A stretch of 64,000 nucleotides of DNA. It comes from Aquisediminimonas profunda. GTDB taxonomy: Bacteria > Pseudomonadota > Alphaproteobacteria > Sphingomonadales > Sphingomonadaceae. The notes under the pieces were generated by a model, which saw only the letters and a program-made list of their open reading frames with translations, was not told the DNA's origin and searched no databases. A program made the position numbers and the translations under genes. The stretch lies in contig NZ_CP080327.1 in the NCBI RefSeq assembly GCF_019443285.1, positions 558,001-622,000 of the forward strand, read 5' to 3'. This document shows positions 33,450 through 47,133 of the stretch, one piece after another. Within the stretch, counting starts at the first letter, position 1; each line of letters opens with the position of its first letter.

Positions 33450-36254
33450 TCAGTAGCGGAAACGGGCCGTCACACCATAGGTCCGTGGTTCGCCCGGGAA
33501 GGCGATGTAAAGCTGGTTGGCTGTGCCCGCGAGGCCGGTCGCAGCGGCAGCCGCAACAGCCCGGAACGTTCCGCTGCCCTGACCCGGAGCATCGGCTGCA
33601 ACCTGCTGATACTTCTTGTTGAAGAGGTTCTGGCCCCAGAATTCGAGGCTCCATTTCCGGTTGGGGCCAAGAAGGCCGATACGGCCATTGACCAGTGCAT
33701 AGCCGTCCTGAACCTTTTCAAGGTCGAGATCCGAGCCCGTATTCACGTCACTCTGCAGGCGGGTGTCGAGATAGAAGAGGGCAGAGAGGCTATCTGTGAT
33801 CGGCGGAGTATAGGAGACCGCAGCCGTGACGGTGTAGGCAGCACTGAAGGTGCGACGGCCAGGCAACTGGAACAGCACCGGAGAAAGCGCGCGGCCGCCG
33901 GTTCCGACCAGATTGTTGCGATAGCGCGAGTTGAGATAGGTGATGCCCCCGTTCAGCGTCAAATGGCGTGCAGGATAGACAAAGAACTCCGCTTCCACGC
34001 CCTTTGACACGACGCCCGGCTTCAACCGGTTGGCGGCGCAGGCTCCCGTGACACTGCTGGCATCGCGATCGCCGCCGTTGAGATTGTCCTTGCAGCCCTG
34101 CACATTGGTCACTTCGAACGTCAGCCCGTTGAACGTATTGAGCTGATAATTGTCAAAAGCGGAGTAGAAGGCCGCAACGTTCAGATCGAACTGGCGCGTA
34201 TCGAGCTTGAAGCCGACTTCATAAGCCGTCACCTTTTCCGCGTCGAACTGCAGATCGCTCGCTTCCGGGCGCCCGTTGAACGGCGTGTTTGCAGGCAGGG
34301 CCAGCCTGGCTGCACAGGCAGCGTCGAAGGTCGCGTTGCAGGTGCGGTCAAGTGCGGAAACGTCCAGATTGTAACCGCCGGCCTTGTAGCCCTTTGAGTA
34401 GGACGCATAGAGCAGGACTTCGTCAATCGGTTTCCAGCTCAGCACCGCGGTGCCCGTCCATTGGCTTTCGCTCCGCGTCGTGCCCGGTTCGGTTCCGACA
34501 AAACCGATACCCGTGCCGTTGATTGAACAGACCGTGCCGGCAAAGGACTGAAGCGGCGAATTCACCAGCAACGGACAAATCGTGTTCGTTGCATTGACGG
34601 TCGCGGAGAGATCCTTCTTTTCGTGGGTATACCGCGCGCCCAATGTCAGCTGCAGCTTGTCCGGCACAATGTCGATGACGTTGTGCGTGAAGAAAGCATA
34701 ATTGGTGCTCTTCTGCCGGAAGCGATTGTTATAGCCGGTGTTGCCAATCGCAATGTTGGGCTGCCCAAGAGCAGCCGCCAATGAACCAAAGCCGGGACGT
34801 GCGGGGTTGGCAATCAGAGCACCAAGCGCTGGTATCAAGGCTCGGCGGGGATCCCCGACAGGCAATCCGGACAGCGTCGTGATCGTTCCCTGAACCGTTG
34901 CGACATTGATGCAATAGGGGTTCGACGTTTGCAGCGCAGTTGGAACAAGCGCTGCAATTGTCAGGCAGTTGGCGAACTTTTCATAGTCGGCACCATATTG
35001 CGTGTTCTGTTCCGAGATCAGGGTTTCATCAGCGTAGTAACCGCCAACGAGCCAATCGAGGCGATCGTTGAACAATTTGCCCTGCAACCGCAGTTCCTGC
35101 GTGAAGGTCTTGAACCGTCGATCCTGGTCGACAATGTGCAGCAGATCGAGCGCCATGAAGTCGCTGTCCTGCCCGGTCTTGAAGTGATAATTGCGATAGG
35201 CGGAAACGGATGTCAGCTGCGCGCCGCCCAGATCCCATTTGAGTTCGCCGGAAACGCCATAGTCCGTGCTGTCGGCGCCATAAGGAAAGCCTGGTGTAGT
35301 GGCCGTACGACGGACAAATGGCACACCTGTTGGCGCAAACTGATAGTTCGCGCCCAGCGCATTGAGCAAAGGTGCCAGCGTGTTGGCGGATTGCACGACA
35401 TTTTCGGCGCCTGACCCTGCCGCATTGGCCCGGGACAGGTTGCGGATCGGATTGAGGAAAAGGCCGGCACAGCAATTTTCGCTGCGCTCCGAATAGTCAC
35501 CGATCACGCGGAAGCTGATGTCTGCATTCGGCTCAAACAGGAGCTGTCCGCGCAGAAGGTAGCGATCACGATCATTGACATCCGGCTGGCCGAGCGTGAC
35601 CTGCTTCACGAAGCCGTCACGCTTCATGTAAACACCCTCAAGCTTCGCAGCCAGCTTGTCGCTGACAATTGGCCCTGTGACGCCGCCTTCCAGACGCAGA
35701 TAATCATAATTGCCGTAGGTCGCTGCACCATAGGCACCAAATTCGAAACTCGGCTTCTTCGTGACGATGTTGAGCAGGCCGGCACTGGCATTGCGCCCGA
35801 ACAATGTGCCTTGCGGGCCGCGCAACACTTCGACACGCTCCACTTCACCAAGCTCGGAGAGGCCGACGCCTGTTCGGCTGCGATAAACACCATCGATGAA
35901 GAGCGCGACGGACGATTCAAGCCCGGGATTCTCACCGACCGTGCCAATGCCGCGGATACGTGCGGTAAAGTTGGATTCGCTGGTAGCGCCGGAGACGATA
36001 AGCGACGGGGCAAGCTGGTTGAGGGCGCGAATGTCCGTGACGCCCGAATTCTGCAACGCCTGACCGCCGATCGCCGAAACAGCAAGTGGCACATCTGACA
36101 GTTGTTCGTCACGCCGGGTTGCCGTCACAATGATTTCGCCATTGTCCTCGGCGTTGGTCTCCGCTCCCGCTTGCGGGGCCGTCTGGTTCTGTGCGAGTGC
36201 CGGAACGGCGATGCTGCACAGGGCAGCCGAAATCATCAATGAGGTTTTGCGCAT
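33450..36254 (-). CDS. TonB-dependent receptor 1 (tandem pair)
   Basis: This 934-residue outer-membrane receptor has a signal peptide (MRKTSLMISAALCSIAVPALA), a plug domain (EIIVTATRRDEQLSDVPLAV, VERVEVLRGPQGTLFGRNASAG) and a long beta-barrel ending in a C-terminal aromatic residue. GGGAGAG lies 5 nt before the ATG. It takes up an unknown large substrate using TonB energy. It is a close paralogue of the receptor at 36481-39195, with nearly the same plug and C-terminal sequences. A GGAATT-rich inverted repeat lies upstream. Confidence 0.95.
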   Translation of the reverse strand: MRKTSLMISAALCSIAVPALAQNQTAPQAGAETNAEDNGEIIVTATRRDEQLSDVPLAVSAIGGQALQNSGVTDIRALNQLAPSLIVSGATSESNFTARIRGIGTVGENPGLESSVALFIDGVYRSRTGVGLSELGEVERVEVLRGPQGTLFGRNASAGLLNIVTKKPSFEFGAYGAATYGNYDYLRLEGGVTGPIVSDKLAAKLEGVYMKRDGFVKQVTLGQPDVNDRDRYLLRGQLLFEPNADISFRVIGDYSERSENCCAGLFLNPIRNLSRANAAGSGAENVVQSANTLAPLLNALGANYQFAPTGVPFVRRTATTPGFPYGADSTDYGVSGELKWDLGGAQLTSVSAYRNYHFKTGQDSDFMALDLLHIVDQDRRFKTFTQELRLQGKLFNDRLDWLVGGYYADETLISEQNTQYGADYEKFANCLTIAALVPTALQTSNPYCINVATVQGTITTLSGLPVGDPRRALIPALGALIANPARPGFGSLAAALGQPNIAIGNTGYNNRFRQKSTNYAFFTHNVIDIVPDKLQLTLGARYTHEKKDLSATVNATNTICPLLVNSPLQSFAGTVCSINGTGIGFVGTEPGTTRSESQWTGTAVLSWKPIDEVLLYASYSKGYKAGGYNLDVSALDRTCNATFDAACAARLALPANTPFNGRPEASDLQFDAEKVTAYEVGFKLDTRQFDLNVAAFYSAFDNYQLNTFNGLTFEVTNVQGCKDNLNGGDRDASSVTGACAANRLKPGVVSKGVEAEFFVYPARHLTLNGGITYLNSRYRNNLVGTGGRALSPVLFQLPGRRTFSAAYTVTAAVSYTPPITDSLSALFYLDTRLQSDVNTGSDLDLEKVQDGYALVNGRIGLLGPNRKWSLEFWGQNLFNKKYQQVAADAPGQGSGTFRAVAAAAATGLAGTANQLYIAFPGEPRTYGVTARFRY

Positions 36255-36480: not shown

Positions 36481-39195
36481 TCAGAACTTGCCGCGCAGCG
36501 TGATCCCATAGGTGCGCGGTTCGCCCGGGAAGGCGATGAACAGCTGGTTGGATGTCGCGGCATTCCCGGATTGCACTTCGCCGATGGTTCCGCTGCCCTG
36601 AAGCGGAGCATCGGCTGCAACCTGCTGGTACTTCTTGTTGAAGATGTTCTGGCCGAAGAACTCGACCCCCCATTTCTTGTCACGACCATAAAGCCCGATG
36701 CGGCCATTGACGACGATAAAGCCATCCTGGATCTTCTCCCGATCCAGATCGGACCCTGTGTTGGTGTCGCTCTGATAACGGGCATCGACATAGAGCAGAC
36801 CGCTCAGACCCGAATTGCCAATCTCAGGCGAATAGCTGAAACCCGTCGTCGCGACATATTTCGGTGCATTGGACAATTGATTGCCCGGCAACTGGAACAG
36901 GGTGGGGGCAAGTGGGACTCCGTTCGCGCCGACCAGATTCTTGCGATACTTCGTGTCCGAATAGGTCAGGCCCAAGTTGACGTTCACATCTCTTGCCGGA
37001 TGCAGAACGCCCTCAATTTCGAAGCCTTTGGACAGCACCCCGGCCCTCGTCCGATTGGCAGCGCAGGCACCCGTTGCAGCACTGGCATCCTTGTCAGCCC
37101 CGTTCAGGCTGTCCTTGCATCCCTGAAGGTTCGTCACCTCGAAATTGATGCCGTTGAAGGTGTTGAGCTGGAACTGTTTGAACAGCGAATAGAAGGCCGC
37201 GAAATTCAGATCGAAACCTCGACCATTGTACTTCAGGCCTGCTTCGAACGAATTGACCCGCTCGGGCGAGAACTGGAGATCGGCCGCCTCCGGACGGGCA
37301 TTGCCCCGCTGGTTGGCGGGCAAAGCAAGCGCCGCCGCACATGCCGCCTTTTGCGCTGCGGAACCGGCATTCGGGTTGCAGGGAGCATCGAGCGCCGATG
37401 TGTCGAGATTGAACCCGCCTGCCTTGTACCCGCGCGAGAAGGAGGTGTAGAGCAGCAAGTCGTCGACTGGCTTGAAGCTCAACACAGCGGTTCCGGTGAA
37501 CTCATTCTCAGTCCGCTTGGTCCCTGGGCTGGCGCTGGTAAACCCCGGTCCTGCATCAGCGTTGATCGCGCAGGCCAGCCCTGAAAGTGGCGATGCAATG
37601 TTGCGGAGTGCCGTACATAGAGTGTTGTTGTTATTGAATGAGGAACGCAGCGTCTTGCGCTCATGCGTATAACGCCCTCCCAGTGTCAGCGAGAGCTTGT
37701 CGGGGATGATGTCGAAGACGTTATGCGTAAAGAAGGCGTAGTTGCTGCTGTTCTGGCGGAACGCATTGCGGACAGCACCTGTGCCAGCCAGCGGGCTTAC
37801 GCCGAGCTGAGCGGCGAGCGCATTGAAACCTGGAAAGGATGAAGCTGGGGCATTCGAGCAGGTTGGAGAGGCTGGATTGATCGTTGGTGCCAGTGCCGCA
37901 CTTCCGGCCACGACACGGCAGTTCAGGAATTGCGCCGCATCCGCGCCGAACTTGGCATTGTCAGTCACGTCCAGCTTTTCATCGGAATAATAGCCGCCAA
38001 ACAGCCAGTTCAGACGTCCACCGAACGATTCGCCCTGCAGCCGAAGTTCCTGCGTGAACAGCTTGAATTCTCGCGTAAGCGCCGTGCGGTGCAAGACATC
38101 AAGCCGCATGAAGTCCTGGTCTTGCCCCTGGATATTCTCATAATCGCGATAGGCGGTAATGGCGGTCAGCTTTGCCCCCCCAAGATTCCAGTTGAGCTCA
38201 CCCGACATGCCATAATCTTCCGTGTCCGAGCGATAGTTGAAGCCTGGTGTCGTCGAAACACTGCGGTTGAATGTCGAGCGGCTATTGAGATTGGTTGGAA
38301 TATTGGCACCGACAGGAGTGAGTGCATTAATCGCTGCAAGCAGATTATTGGGCGCGATCACGAGGTTTCCGGACGCATCACGGCTCAGGATGCGCGTCGG
38401 CCCGAGATAAGGCGCCGCGCAGCAGATTTCATTGCGCTTGGTATAGTCTCCAATCAGCCGGAGACTGACGTCATCATTCGGCTGGAACAGGACCTGCCCT
38501 CGGATCAGGTAACGATCACGATCGTTCGAGTCCTTGAGGCCGGGCGTCAGATTCTTGGTGAATCCGTCACGTTTGAGGTAAACGGCGTCCAGCTTGGCGG
38601 CGATGCTTTGGGTGATCGGCCCAGTGACCGAGCCATCGATCCGGAAATAATCATAATTGCCATAGGTTGCGGAGCCCTTGGCTTCGAAATCGAAACTTGG
38701 TTTCCTGGTCGTAATGTTGATCAGGCCGGCCGTAGAGTTTTTCCCGAACAAAGTGCCCTGCGGGCCTCGCAAGACTTCGACGCGCTCGATATCGCCCAGT
38801 TCCGAAAGACCGACGCCTGTGCGACTGCGATAGACGCCATCGATGAAAAGACCGACTGAAGATTCAAGGCCGGGGTTTTCGCCGACCGTGCCAACGCCGC
38901 GAACGCGCGCGGTAAAGGCGGCTTCGCTCGTCGCGCCCTGCACCAGGAGCGAAGGAGCCAGCTGGTTAAGGGCGCGAATGTCCGTGGCTCCGGTATTGGC
39001 CAGCGCCTCGCCGGAGACTGCCGAAATCGCGATCGGAACATTCGAAAGCGATTCCTCGCGCCGGGTTGCCGTCACGATAATGTCGTCCCCGCCTTCTGCG
39101 GCGGCTTCATCGGCTGGTTTTGCCTGCTCTTGGGCCCATGCCGGCACAGTCATTGCCAACATGGCGACGGAAACCAGGAAATTCACTTTACGCAT
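36481..39195 (-). CDS. TonB-dependent receptor 2 (tandem pair)
   Basis: This 904-residue receptor has a signal peptide (MRKVNFLVSVAMLAMTVPAWA), a plug with DIIVTATRREESLSNVPIAI and VEVLRGPQGTLFGKNSTAG, and a barrel ending MGITLRGKF-like. I place the start at ATG 39195, with GAGGA 8 nt upstream; the next ATG at 39204 overlaps that SD. It is the paralogue of receptor 1 and precedes it on the same strand, a tandem duplication. Divergence is concentrated in surface-loop regions, so the two may differ in ligand. Confidence 0.95.
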   Translation of the reverse strand: MRKVNFLVSVAMLAMTVPAWAQEQAKPADEAAAEGGDDIIVTATRREESLSNVPIAISAVSGEALANTGATDIRALNQLAPSLLVQGATSEAAFTARVRGVGTVGENPGLESSVGLFIDGVYRSRTGVGLSELGDIERVEVLRGPQGTLFGKNSTAGLINITTRKPSFDFEAKGSATYGNYDYFRIDGSVTGPITQSIAAKLDAVYLKRDGFTKNLTPGLKDSNDRDRYLIRGQVLFQPNDDVSLRLIGDYTKRNEICCAAPYLGPTRILSRDASGNLVIAPNNLLAAINALTPVGANIPTNLNSRSTFNRSVSTTPGFNYRSDTEDYGMSGELNWNLGGAKLTAITAYRDYENIQGQDQDFMRLDVLHRTALTREFKLFTQELRLQGESFGGRLNWLFGGYYSDEKLDVTDNAKFGADAAQFLNCRVVAGSAALAPTINPASPTCSNAPASSFPGFNALAAQLGVSPLAGTGAVRNAFRQNSSNYAFFTHNVFDIIPDKLSLTLGGRYTHERKTLRSSFNNNNTLCTALRNIASPLSGLACAINADAGPGFTSASPGTKRTENEFTGTAVLSFKPVDDLLLYTSFSRGYKAGGFNLDTSALDAPCNPNAGSAAQKAACAAALALPANQRGNARPEAADLQFSPERVNSFEAGLKYNGRGFDLNFAAFYSLFKQFQLNTFNGINFEVTNLQGCKDSLNGADKDASAATGACAANRTRAGVLSKGFEIEGVLHPARDVNVNLGLTYSDTKYRKNLVGANGVPLAPTLFQLPGNQLSNAPKYVATTGFSYSPEIGNSGLSGLLYVDARYQSDTNTGSDLDREKIQDGFIVVNGRIGLYGRDKKWGVEFFGQNIFNKKYQQVAADAPLQGSGTIGEVQSGNAATSNQLFIAFPGEPRTYGITLRGKF

Positions 39196-39324
39196 ATTCG
39201 ACATCCTCGAGACAAGTGTTGCGTCTCGACTACGTCTCGCACGGGGATTTTGGTTGCACGGCGCCTGTCGACCGAACTCTTATTGCAAGATTTCGGGCCT
39301 CAATGCGGCATTTATGCCACAGGC

Positions 39325-41367: not shown

Positions 41368-42561
41368 ATGAATCTTGAATTCAGCCCCGAAGAGCTTGCC
41401 TTCCGCGACGAAGTGCGCACCTTCATCGCGGAAAACTATCCGCAGGACCTGCGCGGCAAGCAAGATGAAGGCGATGAGTTGGGCAAGGAAGACTTTCTGA
41501 GCTGGCATCGTATCCTTCACAAGAAGGGCTGGGTCGCGCCTGCCTGGCCCGTCGAATATGGCGGTACCGGCTGGACGGCGACACAGAAATATATCTGGTC
41601 GGAAGAAACAGCGCGTGCAGACTGCATTCGCCTGATGCCCTTCGGCCTCGCGATGGTCGGGCCGGTGATCTACACGTTCGGCACGCCTGAGCAGAAGGCG
41701 CAGTTCTTGCCGCGCATCCTGTCCGGTGAGGATTGGTGGTGTCAGGGCTATTCCGAACCCGGTTCCGGATCCGATCTTGCTTCGCTGCGTACGAAGGCCG
41801 TCCGCGACGGCGATCACTATATCGTCAACGGGCAGAAGACCTGGACGACAATGGCGCAACATGCCGATTGGGGCTTCTTCCTCGTCCGCACGAACAGCGA
41901 CGTCAAGCAGCAGGAAGGGATCAGCTTCCTCCTGATCAACATGAAGTCGCCCGGCATCACGGTCCGCCCGATCATTACGCTTGGCGGCGAGCATGAAGTC
42001 AATGAAGTCTGGCTTGAAGATGTTCGCGTGCCGGTCAGCCAGCGCATCTATGAAGAGGACAAGGGGTGGACCTGCGCCAAGTTCCTGCTTGCGCACGAAC
42101 GCACGGGCATTGCTGGTGTTGCAGCGTCTAAGCGCGGCATCGAAAGGGTCAAGGCCATCGCCAGAACCGAAATGGATGGCGACCGGTCCCTGCTTTCAAA
42201 TCCCTTCTTCAAGCGCAAGGTCGCAGAACTGGAAATGGACCTGACAGCACTCGAGTTCACTGAACTGCGCAGCCTTGCCGGTGAAAATGCCGGAAAGGGG
42301 CCCGGGCCGGAATCAAGCTTGCTCAAGATCAAGGGTTCCGAGATTCAGCAGCGGCTGACGGAACTGAGCCTGGAAGCGGTAGGCCATTATGGCGCGCCCT
42401 ATTTCCGTGGGTTTGGTGAAGGGGACAATGAGCACCCGATCGGGCCGGATTATGCACATCGCGCGGCTCCGACATATTTCAACACCCGCAAGACCACCAT
42501 CTATGGCGGGTCGAACGAGATACAGCGCAACATCATCGCGAAGATGGTTTTGGGGCTTTAG
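41368..42561 (+). CDS. Acyl-CoA dehydrogenase, subunit-like 1
   Basis: This 397-residue flavoenzyme has the acyl-CoA dehydrogenase fold. YSEPGSGSDLAS binds FAD/substrate around residue 130, and YGGSNEIQRNI near the C-terminus is the FAD-binding signature. The family oxidises acyl-CoA to enoyl-CoA. GGAGAG lies 6 nt before the ATG. A second, different acyl-CoA dehydrogenase gene follows after 124 bp. Adjacent dissimilar pairs often form alpha2beta2 heterotetramers, as known for some actinobacterial steroid-degrading FadE pairs; that is inference here. Confidence 0.93.
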   Translation: MNLEFSPEELAFRDEVRTFIAENYPQDLRGKQDEGDELGKEDFLSWHRILHKKGWVAPAWPVEYGGTGWTATQKYIWSEETARADCIRLMPFGLAMVGPVIYTFGTPEQKAQFLPRILSGEDWWCQGYSEPGSGSDLASLRTKAVRDGDHYIVNGQKTWTTMAQHADWGFFLVRTNSDVKQQEGISFLLINMKSPGITVRPIITLGGEHEVNEVWLEDVRVPVSQRIYEEDKGWTCAKFLLAHERTGIAGVAASKRGIERVKAIARTEMDGDRSLLSNPFFKRKVAELEMDLTALEFTELRSLAGENAGKGPGPESSLLKIKGSEIQQRLTELSLEAVGHYGAPYFRGFGEGDNEHPIGPDYAHRAAPTYFNTRKTTIYGGSNEIQRNIIAKMVLGL

Positions 42562-42568
42562 CCCAAGG

Positions 42569-42655
42569 CCAGCCCGGACTTGTTCCGGGGTCCGTGCCGC
42601 CTCGATGTCGGGGCGAGGGTGCACGCGATGGATCCCGGAGCGATTTCAGGATGAC
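42569..42655. repeat. REP-like palindromic element between the acyl-CoA dehydrogenases
   Basis: CCCGGACTTGTTCCGGG (a hairpin with stem CCCGGA/TCCGGG) is followed by GGTCC. A GGATCCCGG lies at 42630-42638; it matches the reverse complement of CCGGGGTCC (42585-42593) with one mismatch. Such elements are widely dispersed in alphaproteobacterial gaps. This one sits within the dehydrogenase operon. Confidence 0.5.
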
Positions 42656-42685
42656 GGTTCAAAAAGACAGAAAGACAGGCACACG

Positions 42686-43831
42686 ATGGACTTCAATTTC
42701 ACTGAAACGCAGGACATGCTGCGCGATACGCTCGCGCGTTTTCTGGCTGACACCTATGACTTCGACAAACGCCAGAAGATGATTGCGTCAACCGGCGGCC
42801 GTGACCCCGGTATCTGGAAGGCCCTTGCAACGGATCTTGGCATATTGAGTGCACCGTTCAGCGAGGAACAGGGCGGTCTTGGCGGCGGTGCGCTGGAAAA
42901 CATGATCATGATGGAAGAGTTCGGAAAGGTCATCGCGATCGAGCCCTATCTCCAGACTGTCGTCATCGGCGGTGGCGCCTTGAAAGCAGCCGGTGGTCCC
43001 CTAGCCGATGCGTTGATCCCGGAAATCATCGCAGGCAACGCCATCATCGCCTTTGCCTATGCAGAACCACAAGGCCGCTACGATCTTGCCAACTTGCGCA
43101 CCAGTGCGCGGAAGGACGGCGCTGGCTATGTCCTCAACGGGCACAAGGGCGTGGTCTATGCGGCACCCTGGGCAACGCACCTTCTTGTGACGGCGCGGAC
43201 CGGCGGAGCGCAGCGCGAGGCAGCCGGGGTGTCGCTTTTCCTGGTCGACGCAAAGACACCCGGCATCGTGCGCCGCGATTATCCCTGCGTTGACGGGTTT
43301 CAGGCCTCCGAAGTCTATTTCGAGAATGTCGCGGTGTCGGCCGATGCCCTTCTCGGCGGCGAAGGGACGGGATTGCCTCTGATTGAGCAGATCGTCGACG
43401 AAGCGACTGTTGCGGTCTGTGGCGAAGCATGTGGCGTCACCCGCAAGTTGCATGAAGGCACGCTGGACTATTCCAAGCAGCGCCAGCAATTCGGCCAGCC
43501 GATCGGTCGGTTCCAGGTGCTCCAGCACCGGATGGCGGACATGTTCCTTGAGGTCGAACAGATTGTTTCGATGACCCTGATGGCAACGCTCAAGCTCGAC
43601 CTGCCTGCTGATGAGCGCAAGGCGGCGGTGAGCCTTGCCAAGGCCAAGGTTTCGCGGTCTGCCAAATTCGTGGGGCAGAGCGCGATCCAGACGCATGGCG
43701 GCATTGGCATCACGCAGGAACTGGCGATTGGCCACTACTTCAAGAGGGCGACAATGATTGAAGGCCAGTTCGGTTCGGCTGATTTCCATCTGGATCGGTT
43801 CGAAAGGCTGACGCTCGCCGACGCCGCCTGA
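42686..43831 (+). CDS. Acyl-CoA dehydrogenase, subunit-like 2
   Basis: This 381-residue protein is also in the acyl-CoA dehydrogenase family but is only distantly related to the preceding one. It opens MDFNFTETQDMLRDTLARFL and ends with HGGIGITQELAIGHYFKRATMI; the YGGSNEIQ motif of the neighbour is absent. That difference fits a heteromeric complex in which the subunits share the active-site duties. ATG 42686 begins the conserved N-terminus. Confidence 0.92.
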   Translation: MDFNFTETQDMLRDTLARFLADTYDFDKRQKMIASTGGRDPGIWKALATDLGILSAPFSEEQGGLGGGALENMIMMEEFGKVIAIEPYLQTVVIGGGALKAAGGPLADALIPEIIAGNAIIAFAYAEPQGRYDLANLRTSARKDGAGYVLNGHKGVVYAAPWATHLLVTARTGGAQREAAGVSLFLVDAKTPGIVRRDYPCVDGFQASEVYFENVAVSADALLGGEGTGLPLIEQIVDEATVAVCGEACGVTRKLHEGTLDYSKQRQQFGQPIGRFQVLQHRMADMFLEVEQIVSMTLMATLKLDLPADERKAAVSLAKAKVSRSAKFVGQSAIQTHGGIGITQELAIGHYFKRATMIEGQFGSADFHLDRFERLTLADAA

Positions 43832-44128
43832 ACTGGAGAAAAAATTTCAATCCCGATGCATCCTTGTGCCTCGGTCGTTCGTTTAGCAGTTGTCGCGCCC
43901 GATCTGCGCGGCCTGATGCACCTGACAACACCAATGTCGGGTAGACCGAGTGAGACAAAAGCGTACCGACCGCAGGAGCACCCGGCCCTCCCCCCCCTGG
44001 TCGAGGGCTCCTGCGGCGGATTCGCGGATCTTTCCGAAAAGCACCGTGAACGCGAATCGCATATGCATCCATTATCGTCTCTCTGGTGTTGAGCGGATTG
44101 AAGAGCGCAAAAGCCGGGTGTTAAGAGT
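43832..44128. other. Gap with a 47-nt hairpin upstream of the anti-sigma-like gene
   Basis: This 297-bp gap holds a strong stem-loop at 43970-44016 but no coding region or tRNA that I can see. It separates the acyl-CoA dehydrogenase operon from the anti-sigma-like gene. Confidence 0.5.
43970..44016. other. Strong hairpin without a T-run
   Basis: CCGCAGGAGC (43970-43979) and GCTCCTGCGG (44007-44016) form a perfect 10-bp stem. CCTC/GAGG pairs add to it inside the loop. No T-run follows on either strand, so it is not a typical intrinsic terminator. It may be a structured leader or a repeat. Confidence 0.45.
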
Positions 44129-44392
44129 GTGAGTATCGTCGGCCAGGAAGTTTATGCAGATGAAGCACTGGCGTTGGACTATGCGCTTGGCATCCTTATC
44201 GACCCCGATCTTGGAGACGCGCTGCAACGGATGCGCACGGATGCTGACTTCGCGCTGCTGGTTGCACGTTATCGCGTTCGGCTTGGTTCCGGCGTAGTCG
44301 AAAGTCTTGCATCCAAAAGGCCTAATGTTGCGCCGCCAGCCAAGACCTGGGAGGCAATCATGGCCAAAATCTCAGGTCGCGAAGAGACTTGA
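44129..44392 (+). CDS. Minimal RskA-like anti-sigma domain protein
   Basis: This 87-residue protein resembles only the N-terminal anti-sigma domain of RskA/anti-sigma-K proteins: DEALALDYALGIL, then the Val/Arg helix, then APPAKTWEAIMAKI, echoing the P-x-x-W-x-x-I pattern. It has no transmembrane or extracytoplasmic part, so it would be soluble. The GTG start is the first after an in-frame stop at 44121-44123, but the SD is weak. It lies convergent to tetR/ECF sigma genes, the likely partner, though this is inference. Confidence 0.6.
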   Translation: MSIVGQEVYADEALALDYALGILIDPDLGDALQRMRTDADFALLVARYRVRLGSGVVESLASKRPNVAPPAKTWEAIMAKISGREET

Positions 44393-44395
44393 AGG

Positions 44396-44989
44396 TCATT
44401 CCGTTCCCGCCAGGATCGCGTCGATCGCAGCCTTCACACTTGTATGGACTTGCTTGGCACCAAAGCCGAGCGTGCGGTGCAGGAACACAAAATTCTCGGT
44501 ACTCATCAGGGTCAACATCGCCGCGGCAATATCACTCCGCGCGTCGACACCAAGGTTCGGACGCTCGCGTTCCAGCATCCGCATGATGTTTGTATAGCCG
44601 ATTGCATAGAGCGGTTCACGAAGTTCGCGTCCAACAGGGGCGAGGTAGATTTCACTGACAATGCGGTGATCGTTTTCCCAGGCGCGGTATCGGCTGGAGA
44701 CCCATTCGAGAAGCTCCGCTATGGTTTCCGGCAGCTTGCGCTGTGGGCCGCCCGTCTCATGGTCCAGATAATATTCGGTGAACGCGCGCATGAGCGCGTC
44801 GCGACTGTTGTAGTGCCGATAAATTGTCTGTTCCGACATCCGGGCAACGCGGGCCACCTCTGCGATGCTCACGGCATTCAGGTCCGCCTCCCGCAAGATC
44901 TTGGCGACCGCTTCAAGTATGATAATCGACGTCTGTTCCTTGAGCCTGGCGCGCAAAGGACTCTTGTAGGGCGCTCGCGGTGGCTTCAC
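44396..44989 (-). CDS. TetR family regulator coupled to the ECF sigma gene
   Basis: This 197-residue regulator has a standard TetR helix-turn-helix (VSIAEVARVARMSEQTIYRHYNSRDAL, about residues 40-66) and a helical ligand domain. Its ATG overlaps the stop of the sigma-factor gene (ATGA at 44986-44989), so the two are translationally coupled. This suggests one regulatory unit, which is unusual: sigma genes normally pair with an anti-sigma gene, not TetR. The target and ligand are unknown. Confidence 0.9.
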   Translation of the reverse strand: MKPPRAPYKSPLRARLKEQTSIIILEAVAKILREADLNAVSIAEVARVARMSEQTIYRHYNSRDALMRAFTEYYLDHETGGPQRKLPETIAELLEWVSSRYRAWENDHRIVSEIYLAPVGRELREPLYAIGYTNIMRMLERERPNLGVDARSDIAAAMLTLMSTENFVFLHRTLGFGAKQVHTSVKAAIDAILAGTE

Positions 44990-45609
44990 ACGGTCGCCAT
45001 TCCGTTTTGAATCGGCTCACCCTTTTCGCATTCATCAACTTCAAGCGTTGAGCGAAGGCGCTTCAGACCCCTTTGCGCCCGCGACTTGACAGTGGGAACC
45101 GGGATACCTCCGCGGATTGCAGTCTCCTCATGCGTCCGTCCTTCAACCACAATACTGCAAATTGCCTCCCGCTGGGGCGTTGGCAAGGCGTTCAGGGCCT
45201 TTTCAAGGTCTAGCCGATCTTCGACCGGCTCTGGTGCGACCGGTTCACCGGGGGCCTCGTCTTCCGGAACGAAATAGCGCTGCGCCTTTCGCAAACGACG
45301 GAGGTGGTCAATTGCAACATTGCGCGTGACTCGCGCCAGCCATGCGAGGGCATGTCCATAGGCCGGATCGAAATGGCCGGCGCTCGCCCAAATCCTCAGA
45401 AACGTCTCCTGCAAGACATCCTCAGCAGCTTCACGGGACCGCATAAGCTTCATTGCCTGACCGAAAAGTCGAGGTGAAACAGCGTCATACAGTTTCTTGA
45501 AGGCGAGCCTGTCCCCTTGACCGATCAAGCCGAGCCAGGACGAAAGATCGTCATTGCCTCCACTATCCGCAATTCGGCCAATCCCGTTTGGGGGCCCATT
45601 ATCTGACAT
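44986..45609 (-). CDS. ECF RNA polymerase sigma factor
   Basis: This 207-residue extracytoplasmic-function sigma factor has sigma region 2 (about residues 37-105: FGQAMKLMRSREAAEDVLQETFLRIW and RVTRNVAIDHLRR) and region 4 (about 150-195: ALNALPTPQREAICSIVVEGRTHEETA, VPTVKSRAQRGLKRLR). It would direct RNA polymerase to a small regulon. The coupled TetR gene lies downstream. The only anti-sigma candidate is the 87-residue gene at 44129. Its cognate promoter is not identified. Confidence 0.92.
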   Translation of the reverse strand: MSDNGPPNGIGRIADSGGNDDLSSWLGLIGQGDRLAFKKLYDAVSPRLFGQAMKLMRSREAAEDVLQETFLRIWASAGHFDPAYGHALAWLARVTRNVAIDHLRRLRKAQRYFVPEDEAPGEPVAPEPVEDRLDLEKALNALPTPQREAICSIVVEGRTHEETAIRGGIPVPTVKSRAQRGLKRLRSTLEVDECEKGEPIQNGMATV

Positions 45610-45843
45610 GGCTTTGTCCCCCCGCTGAGGCGTTTGTATGCGCCAACCGATTGGAATTCAGGCAATCCAGAAATCATGTTAGCCATCATAACACGAATTA
45701 TATGAGGCTCAACTGAAAAGTCTTGGTGTCCATTCGCAAGATCCGCTCCCGCGCCACGACGCGCCAAGTCTTAACTCTTCATCAACCATATGTGGTGCAG
45801 AACCGCTCCAATTCGATTGTGGGACGAGTTGAGGGTTTTCGAA
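45610..45843. other. Divergent gap between the ECF sigma gene and the PAS_5 gene
   Basis: This 234-bp gap is AT-richer than its surroundings and should hold promoters for both genes. I see no matching operator pair, hairpin terminator or RNA gene. Confidence 0.4.
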
Positions 45844-47133
45844 ATGGACCAGACAGGCCAATTTGCCCGGGACGACGATGACGGCGTGGAAACTCCGTTG
45901 AACGTTGGGACCGATGAACGCCGAATGCATGTTCGCGCCTATAACTACTGGGTGTCGCTGCTGAACGGCCGTGCCTATCCGGCGATCGAAGACCTTGACC
46001 CCGCCAACATGGACGATTTCGGACCACACAGTGTCTTGCTCGATTTTACGGGGGGGATCGAAAGCCCGACGATCGCGTTCCTTGGTCATGCCCTGCGTCA
46101 GGAATGCGACATGGGCAACAGTCTCGAGACGGTGTCGGATATTCCCAGCCGGTCGCTGCTGTCGCGCCTGACAGACCATTATCTCCAGATCATTGCCAAC
46201 CGCGCGCCCATCGGGTTCGAAGCCGAATTCGTGAATGGTCGCGGCAACAACACAATGTATCGCGGCATACTAATGCCTTTTTCATCCGACGACGACAATA
46301 TCGACTTCATCTACGGCGTCATCAACTGGAAGGAAGTCGCGGACGAAGCTGAAACGAAGGCGATCATTGGTCAGGTCGAACAGGTCCTGCAGACAGCGCC
46401 CGTCCGGCATGACCCGCCCGTCAATGTCTGGGCCGACGGGCCGAGTGGTGCCGGCGCACTTGCTCCGCTTGTTTCTCCTGGATTTGACGCGATGGTATCT
46501 GAAGAGCCGGAAGAGATCGTTGCCGAATTCGAGCCAGATGGCAGTGAAACGCTATGGGATTGGCTGGCGGCCGCACGCGAGACTGCCGACGCAGCGACGC
46601 ATTCCGAATCCCGCAGTCGCCAGTTTCTCTATCGCGCCCTCTCACTTGCCTATGATTTTGCTGCAGTCGCCGATCATCGCCCCGACGAATATGCAGAGCT
46701 ACTGGCCGACAACCGGATTGTAGCGCAGGCAAGGGCACCGATGACTCCTATCGTCAAGCTCGTCTTCGGTGTGGGCTATGACAAGACCCGCCTGGCCGAA
46801 TATGGCATGGCTCTGTCTCATGGTCGCCGCCTTGGCATTGGCATTGGCGGGTTCCAGGCGGCACTTGAATCGCATCCGGGCGGCCTGAAAGGCATGGTCT
46901 ATGCCGAACGCGCAGAGCGCCGTCCCGCCAGCAAGGCTGCAACCGCAACAAGCGATGCCGCCCGCGAACGTGCTCGGGCTATGGCCCCCCGCATGATCAT
47001 AGAAGCGCCAGGTGATGAAGAATTTGTTGTGCTTGTCGCGCGACGGATCGACCAGGGCCATGTCGGGTTGCTCGGAACCTTGTCGGGCGATGCCGGGCTC
47101 GTGGAAAAAGCACTGCGCGCGCTCACGCAATAA
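45844..47133 (+). CDS. PAS_5 domain protein
   Basis: This 429-residue soluble protein has an N-terminal PAS_5-type domain: NYWVSLLNGRAYPAIEDLDP, SVLLDFTGGIESPTIAFLG, RGILMPFSSDDDNIDFIYGVINWKE. The C-terminal part (FLYRALSLAYDFAAVADHR onward) is helical and of unknown family. It has no kinase, GGDEF or output domain that I recognise. ATG 45844 begins the conserved part. It stands between the sigma/TetR cluster and gdh, and its role is not apparent. Confidence 0.8.
   Translation: MDQTGQFARDDDDGVETPLNVGTDERRMHVRAYNYWVSLLNGRAYPAIEDLDPANMDDFGPHSVLLDFTGGIESPTIAFLGHALRQECDMGNSLETVSDIPSRSLLSRLTDHYLQIIANRAPIGFEAEFVNGRGNNTMYRGILMPFSSDDDNIDFIYGVINWKEVADEAETKAIIGQVEQVLQTAPVRHDPPVNVWADGPSGAGALAPLVSPGFDAMVSEEPEEIVAEFEPDGSETLWDWLAAARETADAATHSESRSRQFLYRALSLAYDFAAVADHRPDEYAELLADNRIVAQARAPMTPIVKLVFGVGYDKTRLAEYGMALSHGRRLGIGIGGFQAALESHPGGLKGMVYAERAERRPASKAATATSDAARERARAMAPRMIIEAPGDEEFVVLVARRIDQGHVGLLGTLSGDAGLVEKALRALTQ

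Follow-up and report, generated by a model that had tools for sequence, protein, structure and literature searches.

How is a sigma factor of the extracytoplasmic function (ECF) type controlled when the gene that overlaps its own encodes a TetR-family regulator in place of an anti-sigma factor? The question is raised by a locus within a 64,000-nucleotide (nt) stretch of Aquisediminimonas profunda contig NZ_CP080327.1 (positions 558,001 to 622,000, forward strand; hereafter the window), in which the sigma and TetR genes face a third, convergent gene for a protein of 87 amino acids (aa). Judged from sequence, this gene set is real, well identified and unusual in comparison with its relatives; its function is a prediction. 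We tentatively favour (probability approx. 0.48) a rewired SigK/RskA-type switch, in which a ligand of TetR would control synthesis of the sigma factor and a bare cytoplasmic anti-sigma domain would set the threshold.

The identity of the 87-aa protein was established with domain profiles. No Pfam match was found at E ≤1, and the NCBIfam anti-sigma matches (E 0.0014 and 0.057, far under the cut-offs) covered the N-terminus of models of 217 and 213 aa. A profile of 42 anti-sigma domains, gathered by similarity to the 87-aa protein but with the window row excluded, matched its frame with E 1.2e-19, the next of the 923 six-frame segments of the window that served as the contrast set scoring 0.013. 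Because the rows of this profile came from similarity to the protein itself, a second one was built from 38 partner frames chosen solely by their position beside related sigma genes; here the frame scored 5.8e-14 and the next segment 0.0061. By these two results the protein is classified as an RskA-type class I anti-sigma domain (ASDI). The open reading frame (ORF) stops one residue past the profile match, so that neither the membrane helix of RskA nor its RskA_C outer domain, and hence no membrane part or sensor, is left. The initial annotation, which had read the protein as the RskA-type domain only and as lacking a membrane part, was borne out on both points, as was the overlap that it had described between the sigma and TetR genes (Table 1).

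Of eight columns that are invariant or almost so, the domain retains seven (A15, A19, G21, L23, F41, W74 and I77). A class I domain folds as a bundle of three helices, a linker and a fourth helix. According to PMC7406223, sigma region 4 is contacted by helices 1-3 and region 2 by helix 4. A low-confidence single-sequence model of the 87-aa protein (predicted local distance difference test score, pLDDT, 56) places helices at residues 6-24, 26-34, 38-63 and 74-81; the sole matches returned by a fold search with this model had E above 7. When the window row was included, the best PDB match of the first domain profile was RskA chain 4nqw_B (E 0.0058), and that of the sigma factor was SigK chain 4nqw_A (E 3.2e-19), i.e. 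the best solved relatives of the two are chains of one SigK-RskA complex. By residue counting, the published hydrophobic contact between RskA L18 and SigK L177 corresponds to L20 and L182 here, which for L182 is weak evidence since leucine is common at this sigma column (44 of 52 rows).

A chance ORF was rejected on the coding score and both domain profiles. The score (0.281 per codon) falls inside the range of 108 true-gene segments (mean 0.351, standard deviation 0.162). Among 540 wrong-frame segments, 1.5% scored as high, and locally none of the other five frames scored better.

The sigma protein matched Pfam Sigma70_r2 (E 7.5e-19) and Sigma70 r4_2 (E 6e-13). The NCBIfam SigK model gave E 3.5e-32 but only 112 bits, under its cut-off of 226, and for this reason we do not claim identity as SigK; by its relation to SigK and its RskA-type partner, the protein is classified as a SigK-like ECF sigma factor (ECF18/19). 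Both SigK cysteines are absent, the columns of C133 and C183 being occupied by A and T. Cysteines at these positions are published for 94% of ECF18 and 56% of ECF19 members, and among 91 relatives we found both in 73, one in 2 and neither in 16. In the family, 11 loci (locus numbers, L, are our own) form a clade of SigK-like sigmas in which both cysteines have been lost (L004, L007, L013, L015, L019, L021, L029, L067, L069, L078 and L089), whose partners have a hydrophobic stretch in nine cases and are cut by a contig end in two.

In the case of the regulator, the TetR_N domain was recognized with E 1.2e-8 (35 bits, cut-off 24). A single-sequence structure model (pLDDT 62.5) has nine helices, and the best 50 of its 884 fold matches were all transcriptional regulators, mostly named as TetR family, each of these 50 being weak (E ≥0.004, template modelling score about 0.3-0.5). 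The protein is thus assigned to the TetR family from its sequence, and a ligand domain is weakly suggested by the model. No close relative of this TetR was found in the samples. At 1e-8, four of 397 family genomes contain a match, one being its own genome and the remaining three matching at 24-32% identity; no match beyond itself was detected in 13 genus genomes (1e-10) or 296 order genomes (1e-12), in both cases among the 8-10 candidates at most that were scored per genome.

Comparison with related loci revealed what usually stands in the place of TetR. For the best sigma matches, 38 loci were retrieved out of a longer list of places, and every one of the 38 carries a same-strand anti-sigma frame, which confirms that the gene set departs from the usual one; from this count it follows that TetR occupies the anti-sigma slot and that the inhibitor has been cut to its sigma-binding part. 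The partners at these loci are mostly longer, membrane-type RskA proteins and in some cases proteins combining the anti-sigma domain (ASD) with a cupin; the domain frame of L072 is weak (8e-4) and L069 is cut by a contig end. Loci from the genus search and a contig scan, the latter of which revealed five distant sigmas, are not part of the count: above the sigma cut-off, a same-strand domain was seen at L041, L042, L048, L049 and L053, a doubtful one at L034 and none at L033, L050 and L054, while L035-L037, L043-L047, L051, L052 and L055-L058 fell short of that cut-off. Of 87 sigma/anti-sigma pairs from relatives, 57 offer the anti-sigma gene an XTGA start that overlaps the sigma stop; TetR, sitting in the anti-sigma slot, uses a junction of this kind here. 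We infer that the GTGA overlap, as read from the sequence, couples translation of the sigma and TetR genes.

The wider set of 91 distinct sigma loci besides that of the window, many of them fetched through the anti-sigma domain itself, gave a similar picture: 86 have an adjoining same-strand anti-sigma domain, two (L034 and L111) are non-adjacent by the rule used and three are without a domain. Hydropathy (best 19-residue mean above 1.4), used in place of a membrane-helix predictor, revealed a hydrophobic stretch after the domain in 79 partners and none in six, with three cut by a contig end. The six resemble ASD-cupin proteins, assigned by Pfam for L048 and L053 and by reading of the sequence for L041, L113, L129 and L139. 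RskA_C was found in one relative's partner (E 5.1e-17).

Searches with the 87-aa protein gave matches in 49 of 199 family genomes (E ≤0.01, its own included); in the other 48, the matching frame is 192-476 aa long. Fetching with it yielded 29 family loci (L004-L032), and a relative of the window sigma is present in 28 of these, the exception (L005) starting near a contig end. A profile search of the class matched 41 of 308 genomes at 47 places, and the window frame (96 aa) was the sole match under 146 aa among the 17 or fewer candidates scored per genome. The stand-alone gene was found in a single genome among overlapping samples of 199 genomes of the family, 13 of the genus and 308 of the class, and no relative of the window TetR lies within the fetched sigma loci. 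The initial annotation had named lack of conservation of the small ORF as grounds for abandoning its proposal: as a domain the ORF is conserved, as a stand-alone gene it was seen only here among these samples. Plasmid searches yielded 594 records with sigma matches (each <60% identity at the best place), one weak match with TetR and no match with the 87-aa protein.

Table 1. Features of the sigma-TetR-87 aa locus (window coordinates).
Feature	Position	Strand	Description and basis
SigK-like ECF sigma factor gene	44986-45609	-	207 aa, ATG start; Pfam and NCBIfam, PDB match, cysteine columns
TetR-family regulator gene	44396-44989	-	197 aa, GTG start; TetR_N; anti-sigma position of relatives
GTGA overlap of TetR start codon and sigma stop codon	44986-44989	-	4 nt; read from sequence
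Stand-alone RskA-type class I anti-sigma domain gene	44129-44392	+	87 aa, GTG start; convergent to TetR
Convergent junction, both stop codons	44390-44398	.	3 nt between; sequence and terminator scan
Region 5' of the 87-aa gene	43832-44128	+	297 nt, behind an acyl-CoA dehydrogenase gene; promoter scan
Weak sigma-70-like site, TTGAGC-16-TATGAT	45685-45712	-	TG preceding second hexamer; upstream of sigma-TetR
Imperfect dyad	45672-45698		Overlaps the sigma-70-like site; chance level

An inventory of the genome is consistent with the 87-aa domain and the neighbouring sigma factor being a cognate pair. Not counting a fourth hit at 0.33, the genome contains three RskA-type domains (E ≤1e-7), and it has the same number of sigmas of this type (E ≤1e-25). 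Two sigmas are paired with two domains, leaving the window sigma and the 87-aa protein, which lie 593 nt apart; random placement would bring them within this distance with a probability of about 6e-4. Two further, more distant ECF sigmas (E 9e-15 and 8e-12) fall outside the pairing argument.

Phylogenetic trees introduce a complication. The 87-aa domain groups with the membrane RskA proteins of the cysteine-less sigma clade (92/82; with L004, 95/77), whereas the window sigma groups apart from that clade. In the domain tree, L041, which has a soluble partner, is labelled cysteine-less for its sigma, and L076 and L007 fall outside the cysteine-less clade. Forcing the sigma into this clade was mildly rejected by the approximately unbiased test (p-AU 0.030 with 11 rows, 0.023 with 2 rows; 0.0855 with 5 rows in a smaller set), a result open to artefact because the sigma branch is very long. 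Alternatives in the domain tree were not rejected (p-AU 0.15 and 0.28), and neither was derivation from the ASD-cupin type (p-AU 0.418 for the sigma, 0.15 for the domain). Judging from these trees, the sigma and the domain may differ in ancestry.

Such a difference would fit an explanation in which the 87-aa protein acts in trans as the inhibitor of a different sigma, such as a SigK-like paralog with an ASD-cupin partner, its present position resulting from a past rearrangement. Two such paralogs occur in the genome (L048, G000:C1:1819310-1820036; L053, G000:C1:3212681-3213378), and their soluble partners combine the RskA-type domain with a ChrR cupin (Pfam Cupin_7, 3e-11 and 4e-12; no zinc motif by eye). 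We consider inhibition in trans improbable: both paralogs have partners of their own, anti-sigmas of ECFs within one group are described as mostly orthogonal (PMC7406223), the proximity of the leftover pair is poorly explained by chance, and the grouping of the domain that suggested it competes with alternatives that were not rejected. The same paralogs qualify one contrast drawn in the initial annotation, that with the usual membrane-signalled ECF switch: the set with TetR is indeed unusual, but soluble anti-sigmas are described as common, and both paralogs have soluble partners.

Beyond the gene arrangement, the identity of the domains and their completeness in sequence and the contrast with relatives, all of which are observed, we infer binding of the sigma factor by the 87-aa protein, repression by TetR, a ligand and threshold behaviour. 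In the rewired switch, TetR would have moved into the second, overlapping position in the sigma operon, and the anti-sigma would have shed its membrane or sensor part, its minimal cytoplasmic domain persisting on the convergent gene. Without ligand, TetR would keep the sigma-tetR operon repressed, with the 87-aa domain holding whatever sigma leaks through. Release of TetR by the ligand would allow sigma to exceed the level of the inhibitor and to switch on its targets; since TetR would be made in step with sigma, repression would then be restored. In favour of this reading are the completeness of the domain in sequence, its normal coding score, the SigK-RskA complex that supplies the best solved relatives of both proteins, published inhibition by RskA of similar length, the greater frequency of truncated RskA beside cysteine-less SigK, the anti-sigma frames at all 38 loci, the XTGA junctions of relatives and the pairing inventory.

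Besides the two distant sigmas and the possibly different ancestries, including the mildly rejected constraint, several observations weigh against this reading. No sigma-70-like site was found on the + strand 5' of the 87-aa gene (43832-44128), and the site upstream of the sigma gene, like the dyads, was no better than those of shuffled sequences. The 87-aa gene has a GTG start with a ribosome site of -2.7, called weak (the range for 16 window genes, with the starts of the other genes assumed, is -1.1 to -9.5). Its product has Y in place of W48 and a 5-residue insertion past the conserved part of helix 3. No partner consisting of the domain only was found among the 16 other cysteine-less relatives (two loci cut by contig ends, two without a domain), and the stand-alone gene is confined to one genome. 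According to PMC7509140, mutation of the cysteines reduces SigK to minimal activity. Finally, no end branch in two sigma trees is longer than that of the window sigma (in one of them 1.82, the median being 0.66), a length that decay as well as rewiring could explain.

Decay is at the centre of the main rival explanation, by which a rearrangement brought in TetR and cut the anti-sigma; the 87-aa ORF would then be a remnant, poorly translated or not at all, and the sigma would be under purely transcriptional control by TetR alone. The single occurrence of the stand-alone gene among the samples, its weak ribosome site, the promoter not found for it and the long branches of both the sigma and the domain are all in line with this, as is the fact that relatives of the 87-aa protein retain longer proteins; moreover, a naturally cysteine-less Nocardia SigK is reported to be active without RskA (PMC7509140). 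Several features speak against a remnant. The frame of the gene is intact, its coding score is normal and the hallmark columns are retained in all but one case. It ends cleanly right past helix 4, i.e. after the part sufficient for inhibition, since residues 1-81 of M. tuberculosis RskA and 1-85 of the Yersinia protein are reported to inhibit SigK (PMC7509140). Nor were recognizable traces of membrane or outer parts, or of another sigma, found near it: queries with partner C-terminal parts or sigmas gave nine weak matches outside the two genes, those listed having E 0.002-0.009, which we take as chance. We therefore regard the remnant explanation as possible but somewhat doubtful.

A different role for an intact protein would be that of a helper or activator, since RskA is described as both an activator and an inhibitor, acting in both cases via the same N-terminal region (PMC7509140). 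In the same source, the Yersinia 1-85 form inhibited, the matching truncation of the M. tuberculosis protein failed to yield the activated state, and activation was absent once the cysteines, which the window sigma lacks, had been mutated. We consider this role very improbable.

The rewired switch may also be extended. In the fuller version, a sensor-domain ECF switch would have been naturally converted into a ligand-gated, thresholded cytoplasmic one: a one-component regulator would have displaced the anti-sigma from the coupled slot, and the anti-sigma would have been pared to a sensorless titrating domain. Across the 3-nt convergent junction, the sigma-tetR and anti-sigma transcripts would collide, and the resulting antisense interference would create a mutual-exclusion, possibly bistable, element. 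This combination we hold to be unlikely. No terminator-like site was listed by the scan at the junction (44390-44398).

In the operator dyad scans, 107 of 200 and 104 of 200 shuffles equalled the best dyad. When the regions upstream of 56 relatives were searched for a common autoregulatory promoter, the highest-ranking words did not resemble an ECF promoter, perhaps because the search was blurred by related coding sequence included in it. To the right of the sigma gene lies a gene for a 429-aa protein (45844-47133, + strand) without a Pfam match at 0.01. Counting its own, 11 of the 13 genus genomes have a match to it, with 58-64% identity in seven of the others. Most of the fetched genus loci carry, beside its relatives, a counterpart of the next large gene (gdh; this name and that of a PAS-like gene in the window were given by eye), and no similar sigma, TetR or anti-sigma domain was found beside them in 11 genus loci (flanks ≤1.5 kb, some of these truncated at contig ends). 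The sigma-TetR-87 aa set has the appearance of an accessory block.

Directly upstream of the 87-aa gene, on the same strand, lie two acyl-CoA-dehydrogenase-like genes (41368-43831, +), the second confirmed by Pfam and the first named by eye, and the ligand of TetR might be related to these neighbours. Farther away, two adjoining, similar-looking TonB-receptor-like genes were recognized by eye (33450-36254 and 36481-39204, - strand).

If the 87-aa protein does bind the sigma factor, it would be a natural counterpart of the artificially built RskA truncations, and the locus would show how the input of an ECF system can move from a membrane or cupin sensor to a TetR ligand by the swap of one gene. 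Under the same condition it would provide a small sigma/anti-sigma module under ligand control, and an example with which to ask how anti-sigma domains persist once the sensor is lost.

Among known systems, the closest are the SigK/RskA pairs (ECF18/ECF19; 4nqw of M. tuberculosis), with which the window set shares the families of both the sigma and the anti-sigma domain; it differs from them in the TetR gene in the anti-sigma slot, the convergent, domain-only anti-sigma and the absence of the SigK cysteines. Truncated RskA proteins accompany SigK lacking both cysteines in 9% of cases, as opposed to 0.3% otherwise, and abnormal RskA proteins in 23% as opposed to 2% (PMC7509140). These, like the window set, combine an anti-sigma of <150 aa with a cysteine-less sigma, but that study required RskA to be adjacent to SigK and considered gene polarity, whereas the short gene of the window is convergent and lies behind TetR.

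Control of an ECF sigma by TetR has a proposed precedent in ECF203, which is possibly under TetR repressors, with TetR in the conserved neighbourhood and an example in Streptomyces (PMC8999054). ChrR, RshA and CfrX are cytoplasmic anti-sigmas, as is predicted for the 87-aa protein. ChrR consists of a zinc domain and a cupin and RshA of a zinc domain, neither of which is present in the 87-aa protein, while CfrX is described as small and soluble (PMC8999054). About 35% of full-length class I anti-sigmas have no membrane helices (PMC7406223), and truncation is given as the origin of soluble anti-sigmas in PMC8103513. No published set of TetR, ECF sigma and anti-sigma of this kind was found among the titles and abstract openings that literature searches listed. 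TetR-associated ECFs and soluble anti-sigmas are each already known, and their combination in the window is a variant of known parts.
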